64,000 bases of DNA, from positions 250,001-314,000 of the forward strand of contig JAJEKV010000213.1 in assembly GCA_021234155.1 (NCBI GenBank), written 5' to 3'. Within the stretch, counting starts at the first letter, position 1; each line of letters starts with the position of its first letter. Below, one piece after another: positions 20,207 through 52,948 of the stretch. The notes below the pieces were generated by a model that had not been told where the DNA came from, did not search any database, and worked only from the letters and a program-made list of their open reading frames with translations. The position numbers and the translations under genes were made by a program. The stretch is from Isoetes taiwanensis. Its lineage: Eukaryota; Streptophyta; Lycopodiopsida; Isoetales; Isoetaceae.

Positions 20207-20407
20207 CTACAACCTTGATAAATAGTTGCCTGCTGGAAAATAATTCACCACCAAAGGGGCAGAAACTCTGGGTTTGCGCATCTTCTTGGAAGGGGCCTTG
20301 GATTTGGGAGCCATGTTCTGGTCTGATACTTTGTTAGAAGAGCGAAAGAGCTTCTGAAACAACCTCTTTACTTTAGAACGCTTGCGCATTTTGGTATTCA
20401 CCTCCAT
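20207..20407 (-). CDS. small basic protein, family member A1 (66 aa)
   Basis: Intronless minus-strand ORF of 66 codons. Three zones: a basic N-terminus with an amphipathic stretch (MRKRSKVKRLFQKLF), a Ser/Asn/Lys linker (SSNKVSDQN, then K/A/P-rich), and a conserved C-terminal end (SAPLVVNYFPAGNYLSRL). No signal peptide and no transmembrane segment. At least four other copies in the window share the same start, both motifs and the same stop position, which supports a real gene. A TATA-like CTATAAG lies on the minus strand at about 20485-20491, some 80 bp upstream. Function unknown; family not recognised. Confidence 0.6.
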   Translation of the reverse strand: MEVNTKMRKRSKVKRLFQKLFRSSNKVSDQNMAPKSKAPSKKMRKPRVSAPLVVNYFPAGNYLSRL

Positions 20408-20482
20408 AGCTGAAAGTTTGAGTCAATGAATGCAAAGTGTAAGATGCAGCTTAGTTGATGAGGAATGAAGAGATGGATAAAT

Positions 20483-20510
20483 TCTTATAGCATTGGGATA
20501 ACTTGCAGGT
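20483..20510 (-). promoter_or_regulatory. TATA-containing core promoter of A1
   Basis: The minus strand reads CAAGTTATCCCAATGCTATAAG. The other copies have the same layout: an A-rich start, TCC, AAT or ATT, then CTATAA. Confidence 0.5.
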
Positions 20511-20861
20511 GAAGAAAGAAAGAATTCTCTAAGCAGGGACTGTAGCCACTCAGAACCAACGTGGAAAGGATCTCAGTTTCAGTGCAGTTACGTGGAAAGG
20601 TATTCCTAGGTTCTGAGAGTAGTTTCAGTGCAGATCTCATGGCACTACTTAGTCAAAAATCAAACTCAATGCCAACAATTCCTAAATTTTGTGGGCAGCA
20701 CCTTTGTTGGAAAAAAGCTGAACTCCTTTATTTTGAAGTGAGACAATTTCGTCTGTCCCACATTATATATCATGTCTACTTAACAGCAAAACCAAAAAAC
20801 TTTACTCGTCAGCCAAATTGGACCACCAAAACCATATTATTTTACTCGTCATGTTTGAGAT

Positions 20862-20897
20862 TTATGATAACTTCAGAAACAACCTCTTTACCTCCAT
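20862..20897 (-). pseudogene. truncated family-A copy
   Basis: Minus strand from ATG 20897: MEVKRLFLKLS then TAA, only 11 residues. It matches the start of the longer degenerate copy at 33936 and marks one edge of the segmental duplication. Confidence 0.6.
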
Positions 20898-21526
20898 GGT
20901 GGAACAGTTGGCAAATATATATGAATACTAACACTTTATAGCGATGGATGTACTGAGATTTTAAGCTTGCCTTCCCTATTAATTCTGCTAAAAATACCTC
21001 TTCCTCTACAAGATAACAGCATGGAAAGGGTGAATCCCATTTTTCATTATGAAGTTTACAATCATTTTGACATTAAGAAAGTGCTAATTCTTTACATATA
21101 CCAGAAAGAGGCTCTGTTTTTCTAGAAGAGTGAAATTTTAAAGCATATCAAACAGGCCAAATCCATAGCACAGCAAACCAACGATTATTTTTACATGGTA
21201 TCCATGGTCAATCTACCTACCTGCCTTACGAAACACAAGGTAGGCTATGAATAAATTCTCAGACGCAGATTTGCAGGGAGAAGATTGCTTAATACTATCT
21301 AAGCTTTACAAAATGCAGGCCAAAAATGGTTTAACAGAAACAGCAGGGCAATACAATTTCCTAAAATCAAAAGAAGCCACATAAATATCGTTACTGGACA
21401 TTTAATGTATCAAAGGACAATCTGAGATCTATTCAATGTACAGTAGGATTATGATAATAGAAGCTCCCTTACACATAACAATATAGCTACAAGAATTTTC
21501 TGCAGCTGCCACTCATAATTTACACT

Positions 21527-21772
21527 TCAATCTTTCTGTTCATTGATGTTGAAGCCATAGGAAACGTACAGTTTTCTGCTTGGAAATGCAGGCCCATTAA
21601 ACATTCCAAAACTATGCCTCTCTTTGTGATCACGAACTTTTCCAGTTGAATGGGACCTTTTTTTGTGTGCTGAACTTTCATCGGCCACTTTGTTTGACGA
21701 ACAGAAGGATTTGAAGATCTTCTGGAGCCACTCTGTAAAGAAAAACGTCTTGGTCATTTTGCCCATCTCCAT
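21527..21772 (-). CDS. small basic protein, type B member B1 (81 aa)
   Basis: Minus-strand ORF; ATG at 21772 chosen (MEMGKMTKTFF) because it aligns with the starts of type A, though an in-frame ATG 13 codons upstream gives 94 aa. It shares the centre of type A (WLQKIFKSF, then SSNKVADES against SSNKVSDQ). It differs after that: a His/Lys/Arg-rich middle (HKKRSH, VRDHKERH) and a different C-terminus (PSRKLYVSYGFNI). Its duplicate at 34531 is intact and similar, supporting coding potential. It lacks the APLVVNYFP end, so it may be a divergent relative. Function unknown. Confidence 0.5.
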   Translation of the reverse strand: MEMGKMTKTFFFTEWLQKIFKSFCSSNKVADESSAHKKRSHSTGKVRDHKERHSFGMFNGPAFPSRKLYVSYGFNINEQKD

Positions 21773-22120
21773 AACCAAGTCCAGATAGTTAATTTGAGAA
21801 ATGGGGTTCAACGAAAGTAAGCGTCATATGATTTAAGCCACTATTTTGGCATAGAAAATCACTGTTTCTACTTTTTTCGGACCATTCAATAGCCATCATA
21901 GGAAACGTGAGAATATTCACATTTTCCTTAGTGCTCATACATCAAGCCAAATAATATTTAATCCTTTGGATTCCTCACAATGGACGAAATCCAAAATACT
22001 TGGGCTTCTTATCGTAGCTTCAAAGCCTGAAGTCTGTTTCTTAGTTATCTCTAAAGAATCATATAATCTATGACCATCTAAGAATAGGCTTATCTTCAGA
22101 AAATCAGTAGCATAGCGTGA

Positions 22121-22321
22121 TCACAAGCTTGACAAATATTGGCATGCTGGGAAATAATTAACCACCAGAGGCGCAGAAACCTTGGGTTTCTTTATCTTTT
22201 GAGCAGTGGCCTTGGCTTTGGCAGCCACATTCTGGTCTGAAACCTTGTTTGAAGGGCTGAAGAGCTTCTGAAGCAACCGCTTTACTGGAGATTTTTTGCT
22301 CATTTTGTTGCTGCCTTCCAT
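22121..22321 (-). CDS. small basic protein, family member A3 (66 aa)
   Basis: Minus-strand ORF; ATG 22321 (MEGSNKMSKKSPVKRLLQKL) chosen because it aligns with the family. The frame extends further upstream, but the extension has no counterpart. It has SPSNKVSDQN and the C-terminal end SAPLVVNYFPACQYLSSL, with Cys-Gln for Gly-Asn. TATA (CTATAAAAA) lies on the minus strand at about 22410-22418. The leader between TATA and ATG is similar in A1, with CCTCATCAAC..CTGCATCTT. Its duplicate at 34980-35088 is a deletion pseudogene. Confidence 0.6.
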   Translation of the reverse strand: MEGSNKMSKKSPVKRLLQKLFSPSNKVSDQNVAAKAKATAQKIKKPKVSAPLVVNYFPACQYLSSL

Positions 22322-22408
22322 AATCAAGCAAATGATTGCAAATTGGCAAAGAAAAAAATTTGAGGAAGATGCAGCCGAGTTGTTGATGAGGAATAAGAGG
22401 AAGGGAAG

Positions 22409-22436
22409 CTTTTTATAGCATTGGAGTTGTTCGTAG
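22409..22436 (-). promoter_or_regulatory. TATA-containing core promoter of A3
   Basis: Minus strand GAACAACTCCAATGCTATAAAA, about 90 bp before the ATG; the clearest copy of the family promoter motif. Confidence 0.5.
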
Positions 22437-23342
22437 GTGAGACGAGAGTTCTTGGAAGAAAGAAGGAAATTCTGTATCTTAGGCTCAAGTTTGAATTCTC
22501 TATGCTGATTTTTTGACTGTGATGTAAACAGTTTTGGATATAGCAAGGAAGAAGAATCTCTTCACTATCTGCCTAAACCTCTGACTAAAGATATAATAGC
22601 ATTTTAAGATGGCGTGAAATACAAGTAAGCATATGTTTTTCATAGCAACAACAATTAAATCAGAATATCCACCACTAACTCAGTGCTTCTACACCATTAA
22701 TTAGAGTACAACTATTTATCCTTTGGTTGGACTGCGGTCAATTTTGATTTCTTAAGAGAAGTGATACAGCTAGCTCCAAGTGTCTCATAAACATTTGATC
22801 TGCACAAAAGTGGTTTTACAAAAGATTTATGCTGTCGTATGTGGTTGAAGATTTTTGCTGGCGTATGTGGTTATGATATCTTTTATATTACAGAGCCATT
22901 CTATTTCTAGGATAATCCATCTGTGTATGTTTGGGACATGATCCAGACTTGATTTGAAGCAAATTCCAGTAAAGTAATCATCTATCTTGAACCAGATACT
23001 CAGATTTTGGTATCCACAAGCTTCTAGGCCTGTCATCAGAATGCCAAATGAAATAAACACTAAAACCACACATGCCTGTTTTTCTCAACGTAGCATGGCA
23101 TGGGAACATGAGAAAGCTCAAACTTAGCAATCTGCCTCATTTAAGTAGATCCTTTACATTCGGTCAGAATGGAAGGGAAAAAAACATCCTTCTTCATTCA
23201 AAACTTAAAAACAAAACTAAATACTTGCTTGCTTTGGCTTCTGATGGCTCTTATATTAAAAATCTCCTTCAGCATGTGCATAACTAGATGTATTAATGTT
23301 TCACAGAACATTGACCTTATTTAATTTAATTATATCAGTAGA

Positions 23343-23415
23343 ATGTTGCACATTAGATGTAAATTATATGTCCAATATCATATTGGACATATAATTTACA
23401 TCTAATGTGCAACAT
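23343..23415. repeat. perfect 36-bp inverted repeat, 1-bp spacer
   Basis: 23343-23378 and 23380-23415 are exact reverse complements. The duplicated locus (about 36141-36176) has only the left arm, so one inverted arm was gained here or lost there. Confidence 0.9.
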
Positions 23416-23558
23416 TATATCCATCACATCCATGGACAAATTGCCTGCAACACTTAAGGATGAGCCAGCATCTAAAGCTGTTGGCTCTTTAAGGACCAAA
23501 AGTGGCAGCCCATGCCCTGTTTCTGAGCATTCAAGCTTAAAAAAACTCCATATTATGA

Positions 23559-23753
23559 TCACAATCTTGAGAGATAGTTCCCTGTTGGGAAATAATTGAC
23601 AACCAAAGGCGCAGCAGATTTATGAATCTTTTTAGAAGAGGCCCTGGATTTAGCTGCTATTGTCTGGTCTGATACCTTGTTTGAAGGGTGAAAAAGCTTC
23701 TGAAACAACCTCTTGATTGAAGAACCCTTGCGCATTGACTTAATCTTTCCCAT
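23559..23753 (-). CDS. small basic protein, family member A4 (64 aa)
   Basis: Minus-strand ORF with ATG 23753 (MGKIKSMRKGSSIKRLFQKL) in a good context (CCATGG). It carries HPSNKVSDQT and the C-terminal APLVVNYFPTGNYLSRL. An upstream in-frame extension to 23798 is not conserved with other members. TATA (CTATAAAAT) lies at about 23864-23872 on the minus strand. The duplicate at 36326 is intact and nearly identical. Small, basic, no membrane segment; function unknown. Confidence 0.65.
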   Translation of the reverse strand: MGKIKSMRKGSSIKRLFQKLFHPSNKVSDQTIAAKSRASSKKIHKSAAPLVVNYFPTGNYLSRL

Positions 23754-23861
23754 GGCTAAGCAATTGAAGAAATGACTGTAAAAATATTGCAAGACCAATT
23801 TCAGAAGGAAGAAGCAGGCGTTGAAGAAAGTGATGGAAATGCGGAATAAAGAGGAAAGGCA

Positions 23862-23892
23862 GCATTTTATAGAATCGGAATTGTTTGCACTT
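23862..23892 (-). promoter_or_regulatory. TATA-containing core promoter of A4
   Basis: Minus strand CAAACAATTCCGATTCTATA then AAAT; same motif order as the promoters of A1 and A3. Confidence 0.5.
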
Positions 23893-24059
23893 GAAGAATA
23901 CGCCTGTGAAGAAGGGTGGGAGAAACTCTATGTAAACATGGTCAATCTTAAATTCGGAACAATTCAATCGACAGCGGATTGGAAACAGCATGGAATGCGT
24001 GAATCCGAAATCGTCGACTGTAAATGCGGGTCATTCTATTCTAGAACAACATGAATATA

Positions 24060-24345
24060 AAGGTTCGGCCAAAAAAAAAATCATTTTGATTCCCACATTA
24101 TCATCTCATTTGTTACTAGTGGGATGTTTATATCTTGTTTTCTAGACCATTGATCTGGGGAATATTCTCAGATCAAGGGCCCTTAATTTTTTGCACAGGT
24201 ACCCCACGAAAATTTCAATGGTGCAAAACAGACCAATGGTTCGTGCCACAAAAAATAAAAAGAATCATTGAAGTCGGCTATGGACTGCGGGAATGAATAC
24301 TGACAAGGGCTAATAGCTGAGCTTGACCCCATCGGCCAGGCCTGT
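24060..24345. other. intergenic, no gene seen
   Basis: AT-rich DNA after the segmental duplication. Confidence 0.5.
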
Positions 24346-24351
24346 CATGCA

Positions 24352-24500
24352 TCGCCACTGCTTCAAGGCAAATCAGCTTCAGAGCTTCATGGCAAATCTG
24401 CATCAGTGCAAATCGGCCTCAGTGGCTTCAGGGCAAATCAGCCTCAGGGCAACGTGGCCTCAAGGAAAATCGCCTTTAGTGGCTTCAGGGTATTCTTCCG
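24352..24500. repeat. degenerate GGCTTCAGGGCAAATC repeats
   Basis: Five to six degenerate units built on CTTCAGGGCAAATCAGCCTC, irregularly spaced by 18-30 bp. Confidence 0.65.
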
Positions 24501-26130
24501 GGCATTCCTCAGCTCCAAATCAAAGCATTGGAGCCAATAACGACTCCAACTCGGCTCCATTTGTCGCACAGAGCAGATTCATATGCCAGAAACTTTGGCC
24601 CGCTACCAGCTTCGTCCGGCATGCCCACGCCCAGGAGGTCCTCACCTGTCTGCTGCCCAGCCGCCTTCACATGCATTCCAATTTTGGACCTTTGAAAACA
24701 GACCGAAAAATTCTCTTAAAAACCCATCCAAAATTAGAACAATTCCCTTAAGCCAATTAAGCTCCTCAAAATGGCCTAAATATACCCTTTTCTATACAAT
24801 ACCATACCCAAATCATAACCCCCACCATTGCCAAAATACCTTCCCCCAATACCAAATGAATTGGGCAAACATAATTATACCATTGAAAGAAAGAAAAGAT
24901 TACCTAAAAGACTTTGTCCAAATGTGACTAGGAAAGAAGAAAATTATTAGATGTATTTACACATACGTCAAGGAATGTTGGTATCAACTCTTGTTTCTCA
25001 TCCAATGTTATGCCGCTACGTGGTGACCATATTCTATTTCGAGAATGGGAAATCGATATCGTATTCTAGTCTGACCTATTACAGCCAGTTACTACGCAAT
25101 CAAGAAGAACATGCATGAAGTTTCAAAAGACAGGTACGTCAAGAATTCATAGCTTTACCCTGCATGAAGCTTCAAACAGCTGAAGCAACTCCGGCAAGAC
25201 TTCATAGCCAAGCTCCCTGAAATTCCGGCTGAACTCGAGTTGAACTCTCAAACCAGAATCCCTCTTCAAAATCCGGAACTGGCTGAAATGTGAAAACCGT
25301 TTCAAACTCTGGAACTCTGGCTGAAACCTAAATCCCGCTTCTCTTGATGATTTAGCATCCATATAGCCAAAATCCCAAAATCCTTGCTTTCCTTGATGCC
25401 GTGGAATGCAGGTCGTGCATTCCGGCCATGGCAGGAGCAGTAGGTCGCGCCTACATGGCACTCCTTGCTGCTAGCGGTAGCCATCTACCCCTGTCAAGGC
25501 CAGAATGCACTGCCTTGTTGCATTCCACATTCAGTCATGTCTGCCAACCACACCTCACCATGTGTCCGTTTTACTTTTTAGCAAAGTTGAACTTTTGTGA
25601 GGTCATCACATTCTAACTGATTTCACCCCGTGAATTGTTGTACTCTTGATTTCACATTGTATGATACATCTCGGGGCTTAAAATTCTGGTATGTCAACAG
25701 TGCCTCTGCCTAACGACGTTAAGGCTGAAGGCTCACAATTATAAACAAGATTGCGTATTAAACAGGAGTGAATCATCGAAACGAGAGCAAACAAAATATT
25801 CCTTAAAAATTCCCTTATTTTTTAATAAAAGGTGGGTAAAGAGGTTATTAAAAAAAAAGAGTGCATGAAATTGTATTTTGACGCCCTCCCCCTAATGATT
25901 AATTTTTTTATGCAATGATAGAAATGACTTTTCTAAAGTGACACTTTTCCTTGCAAATAGAATTTTCTTTCAAATTTTTATTTTTTTATAGCTAATATTT
26001 CTGGGTTCTGCCTCCGGCGAGGCCGACACGTATGCTTCATTTATTTTTTTTCTTTTCGTGGTTCTCTGCAACAATCTAGGTGCAGCAATCTCTGCACACG
26101 ACAAGAAGCCCACAGTTTTTGGGCTTAAAT
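24500..26130. other. about 1.6 kb without a recognisable gene
   Basis: Several short frames on both strands with low-complexity translations. Small internal repeats built on GGAACTCTGGCTGAAA near 25200-25330. Confidence 0.45.
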
Positions 26131-26139
26131 CCGGCCAAG

Positions 26140-26450
26140 GGGATATGGCCGGAGTCGAAATATGGCAGCGACAGTATAGTTGGAGTGATAGACACAGGGA
26201 TATGGCCGGAGAGCTAGGCTTCAGGGACGAAGGGATTCGTAGAGCCATAGAACGCACACTGCTTCGATCGCGGCAGGTAAATTTGAATGCAAGTTTTTTT
26301 TGGATTGGCCGTCGGATTAGCGTAGGGTATGGTCCCTTTGGCCCGAATCGCTGTGTACAAAGTTTGTTGGGCTTGCAGTGGTGGATCAAGCTCTTGGCGA
26401 TGGCGTAGATGCGATTTCTCTGTCCCTTGGACCTTTGTCTAGGACATCAT
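26140..26450 (+). pseudogene. subtilisin-like protease (subtilase) fragment
   Basis: Pieces of the plant subtilase catalytic domain in different frames. At 26176 comes the Asp-box ([13 protein letters not shown], with the catalytic Asp), then SFRDEGI-like text after a shift. At 26332 comes VPLARIAVYKVCW, and at about 26393 DQALGDGVDAISLSLGPLS. The His-box region between the Asp-box and ARIAVYKVCW is almost all missing, and the Ser region is absent. GGGATATGGCCGGAG is duplicated in tandem near 26140 and 26200. A subtilase would be a secreted serine protease; this copy cannot encode one. Confidence 0.8.
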
Positions 26451-26611
26451 TCAAAATCTAGGACCTTTGTCTACCTCACTAGCTGCTAGTGGAGGCCATG
26501 CACATTTTGACAAGGACGTCACTTATTCCATCCTAATTCCTAAACAAGTCGACAAAATGAATTGTGACAGATAGACCAACAATATTAGAAGGTATATCTA
26601 TGTAAAAAGGA

Positions 26612-26641
26612 CTAGAAACATGTGCCCGGCGATGCCGGGCA
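26612..26641 (-). mobile_element. Helitron-like 3' terminus (copy A)
   Basis: On the minus strand: GCCCGGC, loop ATC, GCCGGGC hairpin, then ACATGTTT and CTAG followed by T. A GC-rich hairpin about 10 bases before CTAG, with T in the flank, is the signature of Helitron 3' ends. The element body would lie to the right. Its 5' end was not identified. Confidence 0.55.
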
Positions 26642-26649
26642 TTAGCCGT

Positions 26650-28680: not shown

Positions 28681-28990
28681 GCATATCCACATGAAATACA
28701 CCTTCTAGAACTTGACATGTGATATTGAGATATAAATATAATTGCATTTATGAATCAAAATTATTGCCATATCCATATTAAATACTCGTTCTAGAACTTG
28801 ACATGTGATATTGAGATATAGATGTTAAGCCTTGTGTTTTCATATACGTTTGCACATGTTCTAATTGCATTTATGAATCAAAATTATTGCCATATCCATA
28901 TTAAATACTCTTTCTAGAACTTAGACATGTGATATTGAGATATAGATGTTAAATTCGCACATGCTCTAATTGCATTTATGAATCAAAATT
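28681..28990. repeat. tandem repeat, units about 105-123 bp
   Basis: Three to four units containing ATTGCATTTATGAATCAAAA and TTCTAGAACTTGACATGTGA. Unit starts are near 28741, 28864 and 28969, preceded by a partial unit. Confidence 0.85.
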
Positions 28991-29981
28991 ATTGCGAGAT
29001 TTGTTACATGATGTCAATCCCAAGATATTGAAATTACACCTAAGGATAATGAAATATAAGAAGTATATATATGAGATCTTGCATTTATGACTCATATAAT
29101 TGGCAAATTTGTTAGAAGATATCAATCCCAATATATATAGAATCTTAATGATATCCATTTTAGGATAATTATGGATATGAAATATATATCGAATGATATT
29201 AATAATTACATGCAAGTTGTAATGTAGACACTTGGCATAAATATAGCCCTAGATTAGTCATGTGTGTCGATCATCCAACAAAACTCCATCTTATAAATAG
29301 AAAGCCTTCTTATTATCTCGACGCATTGAGAGCACTTAAAGAGCTATTGTGAGCGCTTCTCTTCTGCTTCACTAATTGCATGCAAGGTAAATATTCTCCC
29401 ATTTTGTTACATTGCTAAAGCTTGGATTGTTTAATATGAAACTAGCATTTTTCTTTCATCCTTAATCTTGGCGTAATGCGTATGTGGATTCTATCGTTGT
29501 GTGAAATTGTAGCGAACGTTTGAGTTGATTTGCAATTATATTTTGATTTGCGAGAGATGGCGGATGAAAAAAACTACATTATTGAGCTAAATCTAGATGA
29601 CTTTTATGGATGGTGGATGAGCCTTTGGTAACTCACCCCTTTGTGTTTAGAGAGATGATGTATTGGAGTTCCTTTTGGATTTATTTCGTAATTTATATTA
29701 TTCGCAAAAATATCATTCTAGTGATGATGAGGCATCTTCAGTTCTGCAAATTGATAATTCTACTTGATGTTTGATGTTTGTGAACACATGAACCTTCAAT
29801 AACAAAAAGTATTGACCAACTTTTTAAAAGACTAAACTAAATATTGTACTTTGTAATTTCTAAATTAGAGTTAGAATGTAAGATCTTACAAAGTTGCTTC
29901 ACATCAATCTAGAATCACTTGGCCATTGCAGAAGAGAATGTTGGACGTTAACTGGGGTCCAACTGCACAGTTTTGAAAAAG
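28990..29981. other. intergenic, no gene seen
   Basis: Very AT-rich sequence without a plausible ORF. Confidence 0.5.
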
Positions 29982-30744: not shown

Positions 30745-30749
30745 CTCCT

Positions 30750-33794: not shown

Positions 33795-33936
33795 CTTTCT
33801 GCTGGATCGTCAATTGTGCACGGATTTTGGGTTTATGAATCTTAGTGGAAAAAAACTTATTCTTGGTAGCCACATTTTGATCTGAAACCATGTTGGAAGG
33901 ACAAAGGAACTTCAGAAACAACCTCTTTACCTCCAT
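33795..33936 (-). pseudogene. family-A copy A5, degenerate
   Basis: Minus strand from ATG 33936: MEVKRLFLKFLCPSNMVSDQ keeps the amphipathic start and the SNxVSDQ block. The C-terminal motif has decayed (IRAQLTIQ instead of SAPLVVNYF), and the frame then runs on without the family stop. Its upstream TATA has mutated to CTCTAAAG. It corresponds to the truncated copy at 20862-20897. Confidence 0.65.
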
Positions 33937-34530
33937 GGTGGAACAGTTGGCAAATACAAATGAATACTAACACTTTAGAGCAATGGAATTGCTTGCACTT
34001 GAAGAATGCATACGACATGAGGACTCTTGATATGCAAGATAACAGCATGGAAAGGATGAATCCCATTCTTCATTATGAAGTTTACAATCATTTTCACATT
34101 AAAAAAGTGCTAATTCTTTACATATTCCAGAAAGAGGCTCTGTTTTTCTAGTGTTTCAGTTAGAAGAGTGAAATTTTAAAGCATATCAAACAGGCCAAAC
34201 CCATGGCACAACAAACCAACGATTATTTTTACATGGTATCCATGGCCAATCTACCTACTTGCCTTACGAAACACAAGGTAGGCTATGAATAAATTCTCAG
34301 ATGCAGATTTGCAGGCAGAAGATTTCTTAATACTATCTAAGTTTCACATAATGCAGGACAAAAATGGTTTAACAGAAACAGCAGGGCCATACAATTTTCT
34401 TCACCAAAAGAAGCCACATAAATATCGGTACTGGACATTTAATGTATCAAAGGACAATCTGAGATCTATTCAATGCACATAACAATATAGCTACAAGAAT
34501 TTTCTGCAGCTGCCACTCATAATTTACACT

Positions 34531-34776
34531 TCAATCTTTATGTCCATTGATGTTGAGGCCATAAGAAACGTACAGTTTTCTGCTTGGAACTGCAGGCCCA
34601 TTAAACATTCCAAAACTATGCCTCTCTTTGTGATCACGAACTTTTCCAGTTAAATGGGGCCTTTTTTTGTGTGTTGAACTTTCATCGGCCACTTTATTTG
34701 ACGAACTGAAGGATTTGAAGATCTTCTGGAGCCATTCTGTACAGAAAAACGTCTTGGTCATTTCGCCCATCTCCAT
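34531..34776 (-). CDS. small basic protein, type B member B2 (81 aa)
   Basis: Intact duplicate of B1, same start (MEMGEMTKTFF) and stop. It has FTEW-like CTEWLQKIFKSFSSSNKVAD and ends in SYGLNINGHKD. Differences from B1 are scattered substitutions with no frame break, which suggests the ORF has stayed open since duplication. Function unknown. Confidence 0.5.
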   Translation of the reverse strand: MEMGEMTKTFFCTEWLQKIFKSFSSSNKVADESSTHKKRPHLTGKVRDHKERHSFGMFNGPAVPSRKLYVSYGLNINGHKD

Positions 34777-34979
34777 AACCAAGTTCAGATAGTTAATTTG
34801 AGAAATGGGGTGCAATGGAAGTAAGCATCATATGATTTACGCCACTATTTTTGCATTAAAAATCACTGTTTCTACTTTTTTCGGACCATTCAATAGCCAT
34901 CATAGGAAACGTGAGAATATTCACGTTTTCCTTAGTGCTCATACATCAGGCCAAATAGTATTTAATCGACGAAATCCAA

Positions 34980-35088
34980 AATACTTCGGCAACCATATTC
35001 TGGTCTGAAACCTTGTTTGAAGGGCTGAAGAGCTTCTGAAGCAACCGCTTACTGAAGCTTTTTTGCTCATTTTGTTGCTGGCTTCCAT
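34980..35088 (-). pseudogene. family-A copy A6, frameshift plus deletion
   Basis: Duplicate of A3. It starts MEASNKMSKKAS, then loses frame by a small deletion. The KRLLQKLFSPSNKVSDQN block continues in the next frame. About 180 bp that held the C-terminal motif and stop are missing. The TATA and leader are preserved (TATA at about 35170-35178). Confidence 0.75.
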
Positions 35089-36325
35089 AATCAAGCAAAT
35101 GAATGCAAATTGGCAAAGAAAAAATTTGAGGAAGATGCAGCCGAGTTGTTGATGAGGAATAAGAGGAAGGGAAGCTTTTTATAGCATTGGAGTTGTTCGT
35201 AGGTGCGACGAGAGTTCTTGGAAGAAAGAAGGAAATTCTGTATCTTAGGCTCAAGTTTGAATTCTCTATGCTGATTTTTTGACTGTGATGTAAACAGTTT
35301 TGGATATAGCAAGGAAGAAGATTCTCTTCACTATCTGCCTAGACCTCTGACTAAAGATATTATAGCATTTTAAGATGGCGTGAAATACAAGTAAGCATAT
35401 GTTTTTCTTAGCAACAATTAAATCAGAATATCCACCACTAACTCAGTGCTTCTACACCATTAATTAGAGTACAACTATTTATCCTTTGGCTAGACTGCGG
35501 TCAATTTTGATTTCTTAAGAGAAGTGATACAGCTAGCTCCAAGTGTCTCATAAACATTTGATCTGCACAAAGGATGTGAGAAAAAGTGGTTTTACAAAAT
35601 ATTTATGCTGCGTATGTGGTTGAAGATTTATGCTGGCGTATGTGGTTATGATATCTTTTATATTACAGAGGCATTCTATTTCTAGGATAATCCATCTGTG
35701 TATGTTTGGGACATGATCCAGACTTGATTTGAAGTTAATTCCAGTAAAGTAATCATCTATCTTGAACCAGATACTCAGATTTTGGTATCCACAAGCTTCT
35801 AGGCCTGTCATCAGAATGCCAAATGAAATAAACACTAAAACTACATATGCCTGTCAACGTAATACTCCAGCATGGCATGGGAACATGAGAATGCTCAAAC
35901 TTAGCAATCTGCCTCATTTAAGTAGATCCTTTACATTATGGAAGGGAAAAAAGACATCCTTCTTTGTTCAAAACTTACAAACAAAACTAAATACTTGCTT
36001 GCTTTGGCTTCTGATGGCTCTTAAATTAAAAATCTCCATCAGCATGTGCATAACTAAGTAGATGTATTTGATCTGCACAAAGTAAAAAGCAAAATGTTCC
36101 ATAGAACATTGACCTTACTTCATTTAACTATATCCGTAGAATGTTGCACATTAGATGTAAATTATATGTCCAATATCCATCACGTCCATGGACAAATTGC
36201 CTGCAACACTTAAGCATGAGCCTGCATCTAAAGATGTTAGCTCTTTAAGGGCCCAAAGTGGCAGGTTGCAATGCCCATGCCCTGTTTCTCAGCATTCAAG
36301 CTCAAAAAAAAACTCCATATTTTGA

Positions 36326-36520
36326 TCACAATCTTGAGAGATAGTTCCCTGTTGGGAAATAATTGACAACCAAACGTGCAACAGATTTATGAATTTTTTT
36401 AGAAGAGGCCCTGGATTTAGCTGCTATCGTCTGGTCTGATACCTTGTTTGAAGGGTGAAAAAGCTTCTGAAACAACCTCTTGATTGAAGAACCCTTGCGC
36501 ATTGACTTAATCTTTCCCAT
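36326..36520 (-). CDS. small basic protein, family member A7 (64 aa)
   Basis: Intact duplicate of A4 with the same start MGKIKSMRKGSSIKRLFQKL and the C-terminal LVVNYFPTGNYLSRL. Two changes precede the motif (SVAR for SAAP), so the usually conserved Ala-Pro is Ala-Arg here. TATA at about 36630-36636 on the minus strand. Function unknown. Confidence 0.6.
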   Translation of the reverse strand: MGKIKSMRKGSSIKRLFQKLFHPSNKVSDQTIAAKSRASSKKIHKSVARLVVNYFPTGNYLSRL

Positions 36521-36821
36521 GGCTGAGCAATTGAAGAAATGACTGTAAAAATATTGCAAGACCAATTTCAGAAGGAAGAAAGGCGTTGAAGAAAGTGATG
36601 GAAATGCTGAACAAAGAGGAAAGGCAGCATTTTATAGAATCGGAATTGTTTGCACTTGAAGAAGGGTGGGAGAAACTCTATGTAAACATGGTCAAGCTTA
36701 AATTCAGAACAATTCAATCGACAGCGGATCGGAAACAGCATGGAATGCGTGGATCTTTCGTGCAATGTGTAACAGCGGAAACTGTCGACTGTAAATGCGG
36801 CCCATTCTATTCTAGAACAAC

Positions 36822-36851
36822 ACTACTAAACGTGTGCCCGGCCTTGCCGGA
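36822..36851 (-). mobile_element. Helitron-like 3' terminus (copy B, mutated)
   Basis: Minus strand: TCCGGC AAG GCCGGG hairpin, CACACGTTTA, then GTAG instead of CTAG. It lies exactly at the edge where the segmental duplicates diverge. Confidence 0.4.
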
Positions 36852-42266: not shown

Positions 42267-42309
42267 ATGCTCTCTGATATGATGATTAAACTGATGTATA
42301 TTTTCTGAT

Positions 42310-43740: not shown

Positions 43741-46458
43741 GTGGCTTTAACAGCCCATACAAAGCAGGTTGAAACCTTGAAGTGGCATCTCCGCCTTGGA
43801 CATGCTAGCAAGCATGTACTCCGCAAATCAAGGCATAACAATTGGTCCCAAGCAATGACTTAGATTGCAATATGCTGCCCATATGCGAAGGTTGTGTCTC
43901 TGGCAAGCAACATCGTCTTCCTTTCCCAAAAGCAAGTGATACAAGCTCCACACAAATCTTGGAATCAATTCATTCTGATATTGGCGAATCACCAGACTAT
44001 TCCGACACTGGAGCTAAGTATTTTATCACTTTTATTGACGATTTCTCACGGTTTACTTCGGTGTATTTCCTTAAGAAGAGATCTGCTGCATTTGAAGCAT
44101 TTCAACAGTATAAAGTTTATGTTGAGAATCAAACAGGCCGCACCATTAAAAATCTTAGATCTGATAATGGAGGCGAGTACAATTCCCGAATATTCATTAC
44201 TTTTTGTACTGCAAATGGTATTGGAATGCAGTTGACTGCACCACAATATAACGGTGTTGTAGAGCATAAGAATCGGACACTAGCAGACAGTACAAGAAGC
44301 ATGCTGAAAATTAGTGGCCTGTCCAACTCTTTTTGGGTAGAAGCTCTTGCTACAGCAATATACACTCAAAATCGCCTTTCTATCTAACCTTTACATGGAA
44401 AATCTCCATATAAAGTATGGTACAACAAGAAATTCAATTTAACACATTTACGTATCTTTGCTTGTGCAGGATATATCCATGTTCCCAAGGCTCAACGCAA
44501 GAAATGCGATGATAAGAGCGATAAATGCATCTTTATAGGCTACAGTCCCACTGCTAAAGCCTATCGACTTTATCATCCTAAGCGAAAGAAGGTGATTATT
44601 TCTAAAGATGTTCTCTTTGACGAAGCCACATTTCCAGCTTTAAGTATTGCAATGACCCAACACTGTAGGAGATCAAGTATCTTCCATTTTCTGATGACCA
44701 TGAAGACACTCAAGATGAGCTACCTATACCAACTCAAGTTGCTCCACTTGTATCTCCTCCCGACATTTCTGCAGAGATCTTTGAAGATCCTTCTTCAAGT
44801 GCTACCCTTGACAACCCTGATCAACAACATGTATCAGAAGACTCCGACTCCGAAGATCATGATCATTCACAACCTGAGCCAGTTATACACCCTGCCTCCC
44901 AGAGCACCGGTCGCTTTGGACGTAGACAGACCCCCTCTTTCAAGACTATGGACAGCACCACGAAGTCTATGCAAAACTATTTTGCCATGTCGGTACTTGC
45001 TGAACCCCTTACATCCAAGGATGCTTTACAAGGCAGCGAAGCACAACTCTGGCGGGCTGCTATGGATTCCGAATACAATCCTCTTATGAATAACCAGACA
45101 TGGTCCTTACAGTCCCTTCCTCCAGGTCGCAAGGCCATTGGTTGTAAATGGATTTTCAAACGCAAGTTAAAAGCCGATGGCTCCATTGAGCACTACAAAG
45201 CTCGATTAGTAGCCAAAGGCTACTCTCAAATAGAAGACATTGACTATATAGATAGATTTAGTCCAGTTGTGAAGATGACCTCTATTTGAGCTTTATTAAC
45301 GCTTGTTGCAGCTGAAAATATGCATGTCCATCAAATGGACGTCAAAACTGCCTTTCTCCATGGGCAATTAGAAGAAGACACCTATATGCATCAACCAGAG
45401 GGATATATCCAGCCAGGGCAAGATCAACTAGTTTCCAAGCTGCACAAGTCTTTGTACGGCCTCAAACAATCTCCCCGTGTATGGTATCAACACATTGATG
45501 CATTTTTCAGATCAAATGGTTATGGGTCCGGAGGCGCAGATTCAAACATTTATGTCAAACGCCAACACCATTCTCTTGTCTTTATAGCTTTATATGTTGA
45601 CGATGCCATCATCGTAAGTAATGATCTTACCTTACTTCAAGAATGCAAGTTTCAATTGGCTGCTGCATATCATATGACAGATCATGGTGAGATCTCTTAC
45701 TGTTTGGGTCTCCAAGTGATCCAAAATAGGCCTAACAAGACCATTCACTTGAGTCAAAATAAATATATTGAAGACATTCTTAAGAAGTTTGATATGGCTG
45801 ATTGCAAGCCCATCAGCACTCCATTGGATATCAATACTCATTTGTCCAAGGACCAATGCCCTCAAACTCCTAAAGATAAGGCTGCCATGTCTCGAGTTCC
45901 TTATCAAAGCGCTATTGGCAGTCTCATGTATGCTGCCATTTGTACCCTCCCAGATATATCTCATGCTGTGAGCAGATTGAGTCAATTTCTTACTAATCCA
46001 GAGCCCTATCATTAGTTTGCAGTCAAACGAGTTCTTCGTTATCTATGACGAACAACTGATTACGGCCTCACACTAAGAGGGAGTAATGTCAAACTGACAG
46101 GTTATTGTTTTCAGCTTGGAAGCAGCACTATATCCTAGACTAGTAAGAAACAAGAAACTATTTCTCCCTCCAGTGCTGAAGCAGAATACATTGCTACTTG
46201 TCATGCTACAAAAGAAGCAGTCTGGTTACGAAGACTCCTTCAAGATATCAACATTTCAACTGAATGTCCAGTAATACTCAAAACTGATAGCGAAAGTTGT
46301 ATTGTCATGGCCAAGACTCCAAGATTTCGAGCACGTAGCAAGCATGTGGAAATTCAATATCATTTTGTGCGAGAAAAGCTGACCACTGGTGTTATTGAAT
46401 TGAAGTATTGTCCCACGGAAGATATGGTGGCAGCTTTTCTTACTACAGCTCTATCATG
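43700..46458 (+). pseudogene. copia pol: integrase, reverse transcriptase, RNase H (decayed)
   Basis: Pre-integrase WHLRLGHAS in one frame. Integrase core in the next frame from about 43842: CEGCVSGKQHRLPF, then D in HSDIGESP, FIDDFSRF, SDNGGEY and the GVVEHKNRTLA region. After a frame change near 44660, RT: CKWIFKRKLKADG, MDVKTAFLHGQLEED, SLYGLKQSPRVWYQ and polymerase box YVDDAIIVS. Last, RNase H with SSAEAEYIA. In-frame stops at 44385, 45287, 46013, 46046 and 46136 are each one C-to-T or G-to-A change away from the codon expected in the family. Non-functional. Confidence 0.9.
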
Positions 46459-46518
46459 AGCTAAATTTGAATTCTGTAGAAAATCGCCTGGTCAAGAAGG
46501 TGTAGGCTAAAGGGGAGT

Positions 46519-46839
46519 GTCGCGAATGTAGCCATCCACCTATCACAACCATGCACCTGTCATCTGCCATATCATCGATCCGTCATTCCATCTGCCTGTT
46601 CATACACCTCTTTGTATCAAACGTAACCCTAATTAAGGCGTGACAGTTCAGCCCAAAACCGCAGCCTATTTCATCCCTTCCATTCTTTCTTCACTCAATT
46701 CGATTTCAAGAGTAGCACAGAACAAGGGGGAGATCATCATCAAACAGATATGTATTCTGTTCAATCATGAATATATTTGATGCTTTCTTTCTCTTTGTTC
46801 TTGCATTATATATGTGATTCATATTTCATAATATTGACA
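46519..46839 (+). repeat. copia 3' LTR (right end approximate)
   Basis: It begins TGTCGCGAATG right after the polypurine tract. A plausible end is ATATTGACA near 46839. No 5' partner exists in the window to confirm the boundary. Confidence 0.6.
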
Positions 46840-48334
46840 ATCACTTCGCCTCATAGACACTGAGCTGATTTGATACTTTCTGCATTCAAATTGTCTGGAT
46901 TGCACTGAACCAGAATTGTCTGGATTGCACATTTTCTAAGAATGCAATGCAGTTCTATAAGGTCAATGTTATGTTCACACTGATTTCATCTAGATCAGAG
47001 CCATTGTGATCTAATTGTATCCTCCCTCTTTGTTTTACTGCCCAAACATCCGACTTGTACAAGACTTAGCTTCAAATGTAACCCACAAATTGGAACAGGA
47101 CTAAGTTATCACCTGAGTTATACATAACTTGCTAAAGAGATTAGAATATTAAGTACACAAGAACATCAAAGACAAATTTAACTTTTGTAACAAGAGGTTC
47201 CTCAGAAACTCTATTCTCTATTAAGTACACAAGATTATTAAAAAAGTACTCATCTATTTTTGAACATTTACAAATTCATACAGAATTCATTCACGAGCTA
47301 CATACTCGACCATGAAGACATTAAAATCTAAAATCCATCACGAAGTCACAGCACAAGGTGGAGGTAGATTCCTTCTGAATGTTGTAGTCAGCAAGGGTAC
47401 GACCAGCTTCCTCTTAGGAGCGTTACTGTGTCACTTAAGTGTGTTAGTTCATGGAGCAATATATTCTGTTTTTGCATCCATGACACCAAATGCTTTTGCA
47501 CACCTAAATGTCCCACACCATAACATAGCTATTTTTCATCTATAACTGATGTCATCAGGGTTGGAAATACAGGTTAGTGAACAATTAGGCAAGTGTATAT
47601 GTGTGATAGGACTATTTTATGTTACTCACAATATACAATGTGACATAAGGGTGAGCAAATCAGTTAAACTCTTGGCACATTTTAATTCAATATAACAATA
47701 CAACCATCTGCAGACTTTACAATGCTTGTACAATTCATCTGCCCTGTAATAACTATTTTTCATCTGTAATGATCAGTGATAGGTAAATGCTTTTCCACAG
47801 GTGGACATGTTCCTAAAGTCACCAAACAATGTGTACTGCAGGAATGCAATGTTATCTGGCAGAGGCAAACATTCAAACTCCTGAGCTTATTCAAAAATGG
47901 GGAGGGGTGACAATGCTGGGAGATTACTCTGCAAGTGATGTGTGTTCACTTGTGTTGGATGATGAGGGATATATTGCAGTGGTAATCATGAAAAGTCTGG
48001 GCATAAGTTATACCCTGAAGTGTATGAATAGAAGGAACACATTCAAATAAAAGCTTCCTAAGTTAGTATCTTGTATTATAAAAGTAATTTGCACTTCCTT
48101 CTGCTATTCCTAAATATGAAATTTAAGAATAATTTCGTTGTAACCTTAAACACAAAATCTACTATAGATTTATCTAGCTCCAATAAGGACAGAACCAGAG
48201 TTCCATTTTTGAAGTAAAGAAAATTACAAGTAAAGAAAATTACACAATGTCAGTTTTTGTTGCATATACAATGCCAGTTTCTGAAATCATTTGTGTTGCA
48301 TATACAATGCCAATTTGTGTCAATCTGAACAAAT
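46840..48334. other. about 1.5 kb without a recognisable gene
   Basis: Only short frames, none resembling a known family. Confidence 0.45.
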
Positions 48335-49483
48335 TCAGATAATGAACAATGCCATTTGTGCCAATTTCTTCAACGAGTTGATGGCTTCAGCAAGTATTTT
48401 CGTGACTTGGATCTCTACTTGGAAACTAGCATCGTGCATTTTTCTCGTTGCTTCCATCTCGCTTTCTGAAATTTGTTTCAATGCTTCAACTTGAGATACC
48501 GAGATGAATTTTTAAGATTCTGAAATGGCTGTAGCCACAGTCTGGGACGACGAGCTCACTGCACACATGTCATCTAATGCATCTACTCTTCTCCTCTTGC
48601 ATCTAATGCATCTACTCTTCTCCTCTTGCGTTTTCTTCCACTAGATTGTCTGTCCTGAGTGTTCTCCTTACTAACTGGTTGAAAATGAAATGTAAAACAT
48701 GTAAACAAGCGAAAAGTATATACCACGAATTGCAAAAGACTAATGCTGATCATGATTACTTTGAGTCTCATTTTCTGGCTGATCGTTTTGAGTCTCATTT
48801 TCTGGCTGATTGCTTTGAGTCTCATCCTCTGGCTGATTGGTTTATGGTTGAGTGTAATATGAACCTAGAGGGAAGCTATAAATAGGCTGACTTCGTGGTG
48901 TAGATGTTGGCATGTTCTCGGTCAAGATATTTTGGGGATTGTAAGCTTCTCTACCTCCTAGCTAGCTCTGCATTGCATCAAACAATTGTTTATTAAATGT
49001 TCTTGGCAAGTCCTTCTCCCTACACTGTGCTTCAGTCATGTCCAATATGAAGAATGCCCTGATGGTATGTTATTCTCGTAGGCATTGATCTTCTTACAGT
49101 TTTTATGATATCTTTCCCAACATGATCTGCATTGGATGGACGTGGGGGAACCTACATGACGACAGTACCTATGCAACAATGAAGAAAAATCATTCAAGAA
49201 AATGTGTAACAAACAAATTAATAATAAAATTTTAAAGTTCTAATTCTTATCCTGCTACTGCTTCCCATCGTTGATTGTTGTTGTGGCTTCTTTGGAGAGG
49301 TGTTCCATGCCTCTGAATCATCCAATCTTGTTTCTTAGCATTGTTAAGAATTAAAAGTTCGTCCAATGTCCAAGTTCCAGAGCTTGGACCCCCAACTACA
49401 CTGCCCATTTCTCTCCATTGTTCAACTTGAATTGCAGAGGAAGAAGGCAGCCTTAATGCTGTTCGATGGGCAGTTGGTGGCAT
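48335..49483 (-). pseudogene. trihelix / Myb-SANT-like DNA-binding protein
   Basis: Minus strand. N-terminus from ATG 49483 (MPPTAHRT). DNA-binding domain: GTWTLDELLILNNAKKQDW, then RWEAVAG, an intron of about 80 bp (acceptor TTGCATAG near 49170), then YCRRHVG, QCRSCWERYHKNCKKI. A frameshift near 49052, a stop near 48970 and another near 48838 follow. Then three 9-residue repeats (NQPENETQ type, 48758-48838), a basic patch (GRKRKRRRVDALD) broken by a 29-bp tandem duplication (48572-48629), another stop, and a coiled-coil C-terminus (VEALKQISESEMEATRKMHD). The intron lacks a GT donor (GCAGGATAAG). It could derive from a host trihelix factor or the Myb-like ORF of a PIF/Harbinger transposon. 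Confidence 0.7.
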
Positions 49484-49499
49484 GCTGTACAAAACCAAA

Positions 49500-50707
49500 T
49501 CATATGCATTATAATGTTTTTATATTATTAAGCATGTCATTCTGAAAGTGATGATGTGATGGTAGGAAAACCCACATAATTTTGGGGTACAACAGCCTGC
49601 TATATAGACAATCAACATTTTCTTTTCCTACTATAACTAGGTCTGAGGATAGCAGCAGATGGTATTTCCAGTGGATAGATCCTTTGCAATCCCACCTTGT
49701 AAAATATTTGCAAGCCTCTAGTGCTGAGCCACATTTGGTATAACGCAACGTGTTCTTTTTCAAATCCATCGTTTGCTATTTGAGGATTAGACGATCTTTA
49801 CATATTTAAAGATAATCAAGTCCTAGCATTATATATTTTTAACCTCTGGAGATGGCTTGTATTCAAAATAACAACATTCAAAATGACAGAAAAGGAAGAT
49901 GAAGTTGTTGAAACCTGGATTCATCAGACATCGCTTCAAATGGCAAAGGCGCTCCACATTTCGTAGTCTAGATTACCGGATTTATTTCTTAAAATTACAG
50001 GTCACACACCTGAGATTACGGGTCACATGCAGACGTGGTAGTTATGAAGGTCATGATACCATCATGTAAAATGGCAGATCCTTCTACGCCACATAGGACT
50101 CATGCCATGCCAGATAGGATAATGGATCATTGCCCACCATTACGATGTCCAACTTTTTATTGCATGTGAACACCCAACCATCATGACTGTGATATGTCAC
50201 ATGTGAACCCAACCCTAATAGCCATTTTAATACAATAGGACAAAGTATGCAATGGAGAACGCTTTATATTCTACAAGACTAAGAGTCATTAGAAGAACTT
50301 AGGGTAAACGCACTTAGGTGGGGGGCATTTTCACGAAATCCAAGCACCCCATCAGCATAGCACCATGACTTTTTTTTAATGAAGTTTTATGGAATCTTTT
50401 GCCCGTCAATTTAATTTCTTCGCACTTCACCGTTCTCCCGCGCCCGAGGTTCGAAGATGGCGCCCTAGCTGCGTCCATTTTTTGTGAAAGGATGATCAGA
50501 GTGCATCAGACCATCATTTTGAAGCAAATAATTTTGGAGTAGATAATTCTGGAGCCATCCTTTCAAGAATGAGTTACATGGAATCATATGATGAGGATCC
50601 TTCATGCTGGCACTATCCGGAAGAGAAACAATCAGTAAGTCTTTTTTTGCCTTATTTTCCTCCCCCTTTCTATCTAGATCTAAAGGGCGCTTTGTCTTGC
50701 TTAAGAG
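49500..50707. other. about 1.2 kb without a recognisable gene
   Basis: Contains the upstream region of the 326-codon ORF. No clear promoter element is picked out. Confidence 0.45.
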
Positions 50708-51688
50708 ATGAGGTTCGCTACAACAGTTCAGGAGTTTCATGAATACAGGAGACTGCCAAATGAAGGAAGGGATCCAAAATCTTTAAGCTGGGATGATTGC
50801 AGCATTGACGATTTTTTAAGTGTCTGGTCCACAGATTTGAAGGGTGCTAAGATCAAACTGCACCAAGTTAGGCCTGAATTTGCTGATGACCTAGATGATT
50901 TGGTTTATAAGGTTTACCAGTTTGGCTTAAAAAACAAAGAAGCCAGAACTATTTTTGCCAGAGCCTTTGCCTACCAGAATACTAGACGTGCTTTAGCTAA
51001 CCCTGCCAAGCATAAGCTTAACTGGGCCCTTTTCGGATGGCAGACTCTGCAAACCTCTAAAAGAAACACAAGGAAAAGAATGAGTAGAGAAGAGACTGTT
51101 GTGACTAGCATTGCAAGAAGTATCACATTAATGGAAGATGAGCAGAAGTGCATTAAAGTTGAAGTGCGGAATTTGGAACAGGAGTTGAAGGCAAAGGAGA
51201 AAGCTCTTGTTGGATTGAATGGTCTGCTCGAAGGCCTTGATAAATTGCTTGTCTCAGTTTCAGCTGACATACAAGAGACTAAAAATGATATTATAGCATT
51301 AAAGGAAATAAGTCCCAATGAAACAGTTGCTTTGCAACAATTAGCTGATCGAGAAACAGTTCAATGGCTAACATTGCTGAATCTTTTGAAACAGAAGAGA
51401 GCATCAGATAATAGTGAAATGCTTAATGAAGAGGTATGTGTTATCAATGAAAGACTTGCTTCTATTAGGACTGTAGAACAGGAAATAGATTCTAAGATTG
51501 CCAACATGACTTCATTGAAAGATAAATTTGTGAACACTACAATCATTAGGCCATCTACTGGAAATTGGGTAATAACAGTTGACAGGGATTTAGGTTGCTG
51601 TGTTTGTGGCATGGCCTTTAGGTCACCAGTTCCACAATCTTTGCTTTCATATCTGCCTGCAAAACCTACAATGCATTTGTCATATTGA
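50708..51688 (+). CDS. coiled-coil protein of unknown function (326 aa)
   Basis: Uninterrupted ORF with ATG at 50708, the longest intact non-transposon frame in the window. Residues 1-115 look globular (LSWDDCSIDDFLSVWSTDL, FADDLDDLVYKVYQFGLKN, NWALFGWQTLQ). Residues about 125-280 are heptad-rich and charged (EVRNLEQELKAKEKAL, LLKQKRASDNSEMLNEEV, VEQEIDSKIANMTSLKDKF), a predicted coiled coil. The end has a CxxC (GCCVCGMAF). No intron is needed. An antisense frame (51361-51873) overlaps, but the coiled-coil periodicity on this strand is more convincing. Family not recognised; it could be a host gene, a retrocopy or a transposon accessory protein. Confidence 0.5.
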   Translation: MRFATTVQEFHEYRRLPNEGRDPKSLSWDDCSIDDFLSVWSTDLKGAKIKLHQVRPEFADDLDDLVYKVYQFGLKNKEARTIFARAFAYQNTRRALANPAKHKLNWALFGWQTLQTSKRNTRKRMSREETVVTSIARSITLMEDEQKCIKVEVRNLEQELKAKEKALVGLNGLLEGLDKLLVSVSADIQETKNDIIALKEISPNETVALQQLADRETVQWLTLLNLLKQKRASDNSEMLNEEVCVINERLASIRTVEQEIDSKIANMTSLKDKFVNTTIIRPSTGNWVITVDRDLGCCVCGMAFRSPVPQSLLSYLPAKPTMHLSY

Positions 51689-52795
51689 AGTCTCCGAAGA
51701 TCTATGTCAAGAGTTAGGCTATCTGGATTTACAAGGTGATTTACAAAGATGTTGTCTTCATTCTGTTTAATCTGTTCCATCATTACTTTGGCCTTGTTTG
51801 CCATCATTGAAAGTCGATATTCCTTTAAAGAAAAGCGGATAGGAAGACAAAAGGGGGAGGGGGGTTGTCCCAAGTATTATATTGTGGGCTTCCAAGTGCT
51901 ATATTGTGGGTGCAAGGAATACAACACCCAAAATATGAGTGAAACATCTAGTGAAGTAAAGATTCCTTAATCACAACAAGTTCTCTCAGCTAGAAGCTAC
52001 TTGTTTGGTATGTCCTGAAATAATGACCAATGACACCTAATATAAGCGCTTGGATTATTATTATTATCAAATAGTAGAGCACATGCATGTTGGATGAGAT
52101 GGATTAAGTGTTGCATTAGATTTTTCGTCAACCATTAGTAAGCTTATATGTCTCAATCTGAGAATTGGAATCAAGATATATTAGCACAAAGAGGTCGATT
52201 CTTGTGCATTAGGCATCTTCCATGTATATCGTATAGCAGCTACTCAAGATTTGGATTATGGTCCTAATATTAACATGCCTTTAGAAATATGAAAATCCTT
52301 TGGACCATGATCAATAACCGCGCTTTGTTATTAATTGCTCTATATCTGATTTTACATAGAATTCTTCTTGGTATTGCAGTATCTAAATGAGACACTTGAT
52401 ATGCAATAAGGACTTAAGGACCACCTCCATGTTCATAGGGCATCGTGCATGCAACTGAAGTTCTTTTCAGATTCGATTTCATTCACACATTTGCATATCA
52501 GTAAATAATAATATCTTAATTAAGTGGAAACAGTCAAGAACACAATTATTTGTGAAGCTGCATTTGTGATAAGCCATGCATTACATTGCAACAAACATAT
52601 CCTTGCTTATTACAGTAGATCATATGAAGGACAAATCCACAGAGAGAGCATTTTTTGAACATGGTATTTTTAAGCTCTAACACAAGCTAGAGTCTAAAGA
52701 TGATATATCTCCAAATGCACAAGCTGCTATTGCTACGAATAACAAATCTAAGTTTTCATAAGCTGCAATAGGCTATTGCCACTTGATCACTCCCA
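51689..52795. other. about 1.1 kb without a recognisable gene
   Basis: AT-rich, no convincing ORF. Confidence 0.5.
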
Positions 52796-52948
52796 TCACA
52801 GCCTAGACAATTTGTTCCCTGCTGGAAAATAGTTGACCACCAGAGGAGCTGTTATTTCCTGGCTTGATACCTTCTTGGAAGAAAAAAAGAGCATCAGAAT
52901 AAGTATTTTAATTGGAAAACACTTGTGCGTTTTGCTAATGCCCTCCAT
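52796..52948 (-). CDS. small protein, divergent family member A8 (50 aa)
   Basis: Minus-strand ORF, ATG 52948, TGA ending at 52796. The N-terminus is diverged (MEGISKTHKCFPIKILILML) and the Lys/Ala linker is missing. FSSKKVSSQ still matches SSNKVSDQ, and the C-terminal end TAPLVVNYFPAGNKLSRL is almost identical to A1 although the rest has drifted. A TATA-like CTATAAAAGG lies on the minus strand at about 52975-52984, close to the ATG. It is 16-32 kb from the main clusters. Preserved C-terminus with eroded middle suggests the C-terminal motif is the functional part. Confidence 0.6.
   Translation of the reverse strand: MEGISKTHKCFPIKILILMLFFSSKKVSSQEITAPLVVNYFPAGNKLSRL

Follow-up and report, generated by a model that had tools for sequence, protein, structure and literature searches.

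A clustered family of small basic proteins in Isoetes taiwanensis whose C-terminal tail resembles a peroxisomal targeting signal

We analysed a stretch of 64,000 nucleotides from Isoetes taiwanensis (contig JAJEKV010000213.1, hereafter C889, positions 250001-314000; this whole stretch is called the window), which carries a clustered family of genes for small basic proteins whose conserved C-terminal tail has the form of a peroxisomal targeting signal type 1 (PTS1). As shown in Table 1, the five open reading frames (ORFs) named in a preliminary description of this DNA, four intact and one short and divergent, were all present, and all lie on the minus strand. A segment containing genes 2 and 3 recurs further along the window, which makes gene 4 a segmental duplicate of gene 3. 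In gene 4, V-A-R replaces A-A-P before LVVNYFP, giving A-R-L instead of A-P-L, and the short member has 16 residues fewer in mid-protein relative to the full alignment.

Three broken copies had also been proposed in the window. Broken copies lie near 33.8 and 35.0 kb; a pair of 81-residue frames could be accepted only as probable relics. In the 35.0-kb copy, the loss of the C-terminal half is seen as about 16 bp between the aligned blocks at 34967 and 34984, compared with about 250 bp between the corresponding blocks at 21963 and 22216. The match of the two 81-residue frames to the family is limited to its first half, with scores above those of shuffled sequences in 8 comparisons (p 0.0005-0.05). 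The frame at 21527 has no TATAA[AG] within 250 bp upstream and no C-terminal motif. Both frames are absent from the matches of the gene 1 genome search at E up to 10, and for this reason they are listed as probable relics only.

Table 1 Family members, promoter elements, broken copies and duplicated segments in the window.
Feature	Position	Strand	Basis
Gene 1 (L001), intact, 66 residues, ends LSRL-stop	20207-20407	-	ORF and genome search
TATA box of gene 1, TATAAG, 82 bp 5' of ATG	20484-20489	-	
Gene 2 (L004), intact, 66 residues counted from ATG, ends LSSL-stop	22121-22321	-	ORF and genome search
TATA box of gene 2, TATAAA, 96 bp 5' of ATG	22412-22417	-	
Gene 3 (L007), intact, 64 residues, ends LSRL-stop	23559-23753	-	ORF and genome search
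TATA box of gene 3, TATAAA, 118 bp 5' of ATG	23866-23871	-	
Gene 4 (L012), intact, 64 residues, duplicate of gene 3, ends LSRL-stop	36326-36520	-	ORF and genome search
TATA box of gene 4, TATAAA, 116 bp 5' of ATG	36631-36636	-	
Short divergent member, 50 residues, ends LSRL-stop	52796-52948	-	ORF and genome search
TATA-like box of short member, TATAAG, 94 bp 5' of ATG; second match at -36	53037-53042	-	
Broken copy (L019), readable in its first half, C-terminal motif out of that frame	33802-33936	-	
Broken duplicate of gene 2, frame broken close to start, C-terminal half gone	34984-35088	-	
Probable relic, open 81-residue frame, shares KM..LQKIF..SSNKVADE only	21527-21772	-	
Probable relic, second copy, inside duplicated segment	34531-34776	-	
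Segment recurring at 33908-36822	20869-24051		about 88% identity in aligned blocks
Second copy of the segment at 20869-24051	33908-36822		about 88% identity in aligned blocks

The family extends well beyond the window. Genome-wide scans covered 1,658,258,908 bases in 1110 contigs, and copies were collected by searches with five family proteins and with a DNA pattern for P-[LF]-V-V-N-Y-F-P; the counts of intact and broken copies are lower bounds. At least 17 intact copies with a full frame, ATG and stop were found, five of them in the window and nine on its contig C889 (at 207.9, 270.2, 272.1, 273.6, 286.3, 302.8, 345.8, 611.0, and 613.1 kb). Contig C1040 holds another five, and C929, C930, and C1031 hold one apiece. 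The products are 63-66 residues long, with the single exception of 50 residues. In addition to the 35.0-kb copy in the window, broken copies lie at at least 11 further loci (L016, L017, L019, L020, L027, L029, L030, and L036-L039). Seven of 14 additional stretches inspected contain family remains (L027, L029, L030, and L036-L039), and no family remains were found in the other seven (L028, L031-L035, and L040). The broken copies L029 (C1058), L030 (C1067), and L038 (C1057) each carry two degraded tail motifs that stand in different frames, which looks as though a single decayed copy had spread. Such a mix of intact and decayed copies supports the locally expanded gene family claimed earlier.

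Five copies are collinear but inverted between C889 and C1040 (L009/L013, L001/L002, L004/L005, L007/L011, and L008/L010), with a coding identity of 95.5-98.0%, compared with 86-94% in the alignable part of their 1.2-kb flanks. These pairs are either segmental duplicates or strongly diverged haplotypes, and because they may be haplotypes, 17 may exceed the true number of genes per haploid set. In the distant subfamilies (L007/L008 and L001/L004), the common part of the 1200-bp flanks amounts to only 51-60 bp on the upstream side and 0-30 bp on the downstream side, which refuted the concern that the family is confined to one repeat; closer pairs (L008/L009, and L014 with the short member) have longer common flanks through segmental duplication.

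Selection on the coding frames was estimated by maximum likelihood with codon models. For a set of 15 copies, that is, the 17 minus the short member and L018, the ratio of non-synonymous to synonymous substitution (omega, or dN/dS) was 0.46 under three frequency settings, with a likelihood ratio of 20.0-20.5 against an omega of 1 and with kappa on a grid. All 17 copies together gave an omega of 0.56-0.57 (likelihood ratio 12.7-13.9), and the MG models gave 0.40 and 0.46 for the two sets, respectively. Pairwise dN/dS by the NG86 method was 0.19-0.56 among six representatives (L001, L004, L007, L008, L009, and L014) and 0.14-0.69 over all between-subfamily pairs among 16 copies, L018 being left out. 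The dN/dS comparison that the preliminary description had proposed thus gave values that are not near 1 for the family, but near 1 for the short member, whose NG86 omega was 1.12 against L014 and 0.90 against L015, its nearest relatives. Selection on the short member looks relaxed, or the gene looks to be dying. These results indicated that most copies of the family are maintained by selection.

The constraint is unevenly distributed along the protein. Over the 15 non-independent pairs of the six representatives, the ratio of non-synonymous to synonymous differences per site (pN/pS) differed by region: alignment columns 1-12, 0.75; helix, 0.13; SNKVSDQ, 0.41; linker, 0.56; C-terminal motif, 0.28; last three residues, 0.31. 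The PLVVNYFP core had a pN/pS of 0, with 0 non-synonymous and about 31 synonymous differences. The helix and this core are the most constrained parts among the six representatives; the core differs in L012 and L018, which both lie outside that group.

The sequences upstream of the frames are conserved as well. A TATAA[AG] element, typically in the form CCAATGCTATAAAA, was found 69-118 bp 5' of the ATG in 16 of the 17 copies, L006 being the copy without one at the promoter position. The same pattern occurred in 7/17 control stretches at -600 to -400, in 3/17 at +200 to +400 past the stop, and in 14% of mononucleotide shuffles. The start site was set 28 bp downstream of the TATA box, and L006 was given a 60-bp leader; under this assumed start site, none of the 17 leaders contains an upstream ATG. 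The start context TCAGC[CT]ATGG is present in 11 of 17 copies. These data agree with a leader that is predicted to be short and with a coding frame free of interruptions. An intron of the 5' untranslated region ending at the TCAG just 5' of the ATG was also considered, and is not favoured given the TATA box so close upstream in all copies but one. The number of intact copies, the omega below 1, and the conserved TATA box and start context sustain the earlier claim of a real gene family beyond chance ORFs.

What is new here beyond the preliminary description is the apparent identity of the tail with a peroxisomal targeting signal. S-x-L stands directly at the stop codon in 17/17 intact copies, as SRL in 12, SSL in three (L004-L006), SML in one (L014), and STL in one (L018). 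All four forms appear among the experimentally validated plant PTS1 tripeptides in Table A1 of PMC3427985, and a validated tripeptide therefore occupies the extreme C-terminus of every one of the 17 copies. In the window as a whole, 9 of 412 ATG-started frames of at least 30 residues end in a listed tripeptide; five of the nine belong to the family, leaving 4/407. According to excerpts of PMC3487989, a PTS1 requires two strong residues of [SA][KR][LMI], position -2 is the most flexible with 16 residues allowed, PTS1 domains very rarely contain acidic residues, and weak tripeptides depend on upstream enhancers; an excerpt of PMC9328179 names Arabidopsis proteins ending in SSL and SML and states that -2 is the position at which a non-canonical residue is tolerated best. 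The family agrees with the rules on the tripeptide and on acidic residues. Each copy has the two strong residues S and L, all 17 copies retain S at -3 and L at -1 and vary within the final tripeptide only at -2, and neither D nor E occurs in the last 14 residues of any copy. Behind the kept residues the codons vary (TCA or TCT for S; TTG, CTT, CTG, or CTA for L; TAG or TGA as stop; 16 copies).

The C-terminal motif had been called invariant, and this part of the preliminary description did not hold. The end varies as [LF]-S-[R/S/M/T]-L across copies, gene 4 carries its A-R-L, and the C-terminal motif of L018, which is full-length but lies outside the window, reads APSAVNHLPAVHYLSTL. L018 is the most diverged full-length copy, with PSAVNHLP in place of PLVVNYFP, yet it ends in LSTL. 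Judged by sequence, this copy, in which the core is lost and S-x-L is kept, would be the strongest single point for a PTS1. At least part of what the conserved tail does is probably to serve as an address label.

We next considered what kind of protein would bear such a tail. An AlphaFold model made with the five window proteins showed a single helix at residues 12-21, with a pLDDT of 85 over residues 11-20; the model is otherwise of low confidence (pLDDT 56-65 in other blocks, mean 64.8, pTM 0.23). The proteins have isoelectric points (pI) of 9.9-12.0 and contain only 1-3 acidic residues each. The KRLFQKLF segment is amphipathic in 13/17 copies, with a best moment of 0.66-0.80 that is reached by 0.6-2.6% of shuffles of the segment. 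Amphipathicity is weaker in L014, L015, and L018 (moment 0.56-0.57, reached by 12% of shuffles), and in the short member the best amphipathic window is another segment. A targeting signal of type 2 in KRLFQKLFHP was judged by eye against the consensus and rejected, the H being found only in L007, L011, and L012.

These features, a helix, a flexible basic linker, a kept hydrophobic-aromatic segment, and a PTS1-like end, suggested import through the receptor PEX5 followed by binding to a protein or membrane. Each gene, with its own TATA promoter and uninterrupted frame, would be transcribed and translated into a basic and mostly disordered product of 63-66 residues (50 in one case), with an amphipathic helix around KRLFQKLF. 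The C-terminal segment APLVVNYFPxGNYLSRL would then have a double role: the final SRL, SSL, SML, or STL would be bound as a PTS1 by PEX5, and this receptor would bring the protein into the matrix of the peroxisome. PLVVNYFP together with the helix would form the working parts, probably gripping either a partner protein or the membrane at its inner face, the partner and role being speculative. We consider it moderately probable that the family consists of such small, basic, mostly disordered proteins of the peroxisome matrix, with an amphipathic helix and a partner-binding motif, delivered by a PTS1.

Several points weigh against this interpretation. The PTS1 match was noticed post hoc, and several kinds of C-terminal signal would have been recognisable, so the background of 1% in the window understates chance. 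The copies are related by descent, and 17/17 does not amount to 17 independent events. SSL, SML, and STL do not belong to the canonical tripeptides and, according to the excerpted PMC3487989, require upstream enhancers. L018 sits on a long branch and may itself be decaying. On the side of selection, empirical codon frequencies raise omega to 0.54 for the 15 copies and 0.63 for all 17, where the fit is about 3.7 log units better than with an omega of 1, and the pairs of the recent trio L004-L006 differ by 0-1 synonymous and 4 non-synonymous changes; for recent pairs, dN/dS is uninformative or unfavourable for selection.

Alternatively, the proteins could be cytosolic or nuclear regulators, whose C-terminal segment docks a folded partner, whose basic part gives affinity for nucleus or membrane, and whose S-x-L resembles a PTS1 by coincidence. 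The absence of non-synonymous differences in the core, which is stricter than a PTS1 requires, the low ratio of the helix, and the very high pI would suit such a regulator. However, L018 kept S-x-L despite the loss of the core, variation among the last three residues is found at -2 alone, and S-x-L lies exactly at the stop in every copy. We consider the regulator less probable than the peroxisomal reading. It is unlikely that the proteins enter mitochondria or plastids, with the basic N-terminal part and its amphipathic helix as import presequence and the C-terminal motif as the mature part. The basic amphipathic segment near the N-terminus and the scarcity of acidic residues are in line with a presequence, but columns 1-12 are the least constrained of the alignment, E stands at position 2 in 11/17 copies, and the S-x-L ending is left without explanation. 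That the frames are no genes at all, arising by chance or as relics carried by repeats, is hardly credible: broken copies are numerous and the omega of the short member is near 1, but the family omega is below 1, TATA box and start context are conserved, and distant subfamilies have little flank in common.

Other features of the window were recorded. In the frame at 54679-54981 (+) there is a match to the start of a ubiquitin-specific protease (UCH, E 5e-5, 23.5 bits; Pfam cut-off 23.9). The 561-bp piece at 54840-55400 (+) recurs in the genome in 10 further near-full-length copies, which are 90-94% identical, and in 12 shorter matches, and because of this repetition the UCH-like piece is possibly not a lone resident gene but a gene fragment that a mobile element carries. 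A long interspersed nuclear element (LINE)-like element lies at 321-4157 (+), with an endonuclease match at 321-1946 and reverse transcriptase and zf-RVT at 1950-4157. Reverse transcriptase RVT_1 was matched at 9783-10736 (+) with an E of 1e-26; the 4-kb block 8001-12000 has 51.5% GC, compared with 36-42% in the other 15 blocks of the window, and is possibly a recently arrived element. Pieces of a Copia-type retrotransposon (integrase core and RVT_2) lie at 43839-46012 (+), and a frame at 57260-57517 (-) matches MutS domain V (E 1e-7), representing a MutS-homologue gene or a fragment of one.

The family was then compared with known families and systems. None of the three copies scanned (of 17) matched a Pfam family at E up to 10, PDB gave no accepted match for the one copy searched (its match to eS17 at E 0.81 was taken as chance), and Rfam gave nothing in the window at the gathering threshold. 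The peptide pattern fit 9 stretches of the prokaryote collection and 168 of the viral one, and none was confirmed as a relative. Four motif strings of the family were found in no paper of the open-licence literature searched, and among the matches listed for open-licence literature on small plant proteins of the peroxisome, on peroxisomes in Isoetes, and on orphan families of Isoetes there is no such family. Neither the I. sinensis nor the I. taiwanensis genome paper has the string 'peroxisom' in its main text.

The domain II degron of Aux/IAA proteins, which reads SAPVVGWPPVQSFRKN or similar at the Isoetes Aux/IAA loci, bears a superficial likeness to SAPLVVNYFPAGNYLSRL of the family. Membership was rejected: the GWPPV core is carried by 5/6 of the Isoetes Aux/IAA loci read and by 0/17 family copies, the likeness is not clearly above that of shuffles (p 0.06, 0.20, and 0.06), and the AUX_IAA domain (PF02309) had no match at E up to 10 in the three copies scanned. 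A second likeness concerns catalase, a peroxisomal enzyme. In its segment VNYFPSRFDPVRH, the catalase locus L041 has an exact VNYFP, with a score above shuffles (p about 0.002); three other catalase loci read VDYFP or VGYFP, the four being taken from at least 109 matches. This likeness to VNYFPSRFDP, five residues chosen post hoc, is a lead only. Catalase-like matches, most with internal stops, are also clustered on C1034 at about 6.9-7.2 Mb, which suggests a local array of catalase pseudogenes. It is conceivable, and in our view very unlikely, that the PTS1-delivered microproteins regulate catalase, with VNYFP mimicking VNYFPSRFDP and hindering or helping catalase assembly within the peroxisome, and with the expansion of the family tuning the handling of hydrogen peroxide in an aquatic plant with crassulacean acid metabolism.

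As a precedent, the small LSU proteins of Arabidopsis are reported to bind catalase and to influence peroxisomes (PMC11511919); they differ from the present family in being, according to the same paper, coiled-coil proteins. If import is true, the family would be an amplified, selection-kept family of peroxisomal microproteins, for which no plant example was among the literature matches listed, and an unexpected peroxisome component in an early-diverging vascular plant. Here a conserved C-terminus that otherwise has no explanation, in a small family of orphan proteins, would be readable as an organelle address. Known plant PTS1 matrix proteins are mostly enzymes. The family shares with them the acid-free last 14 residues, and differs from them in its length of 50-66 residues and in having no domain found in the copies searched against Pfam and PDB.

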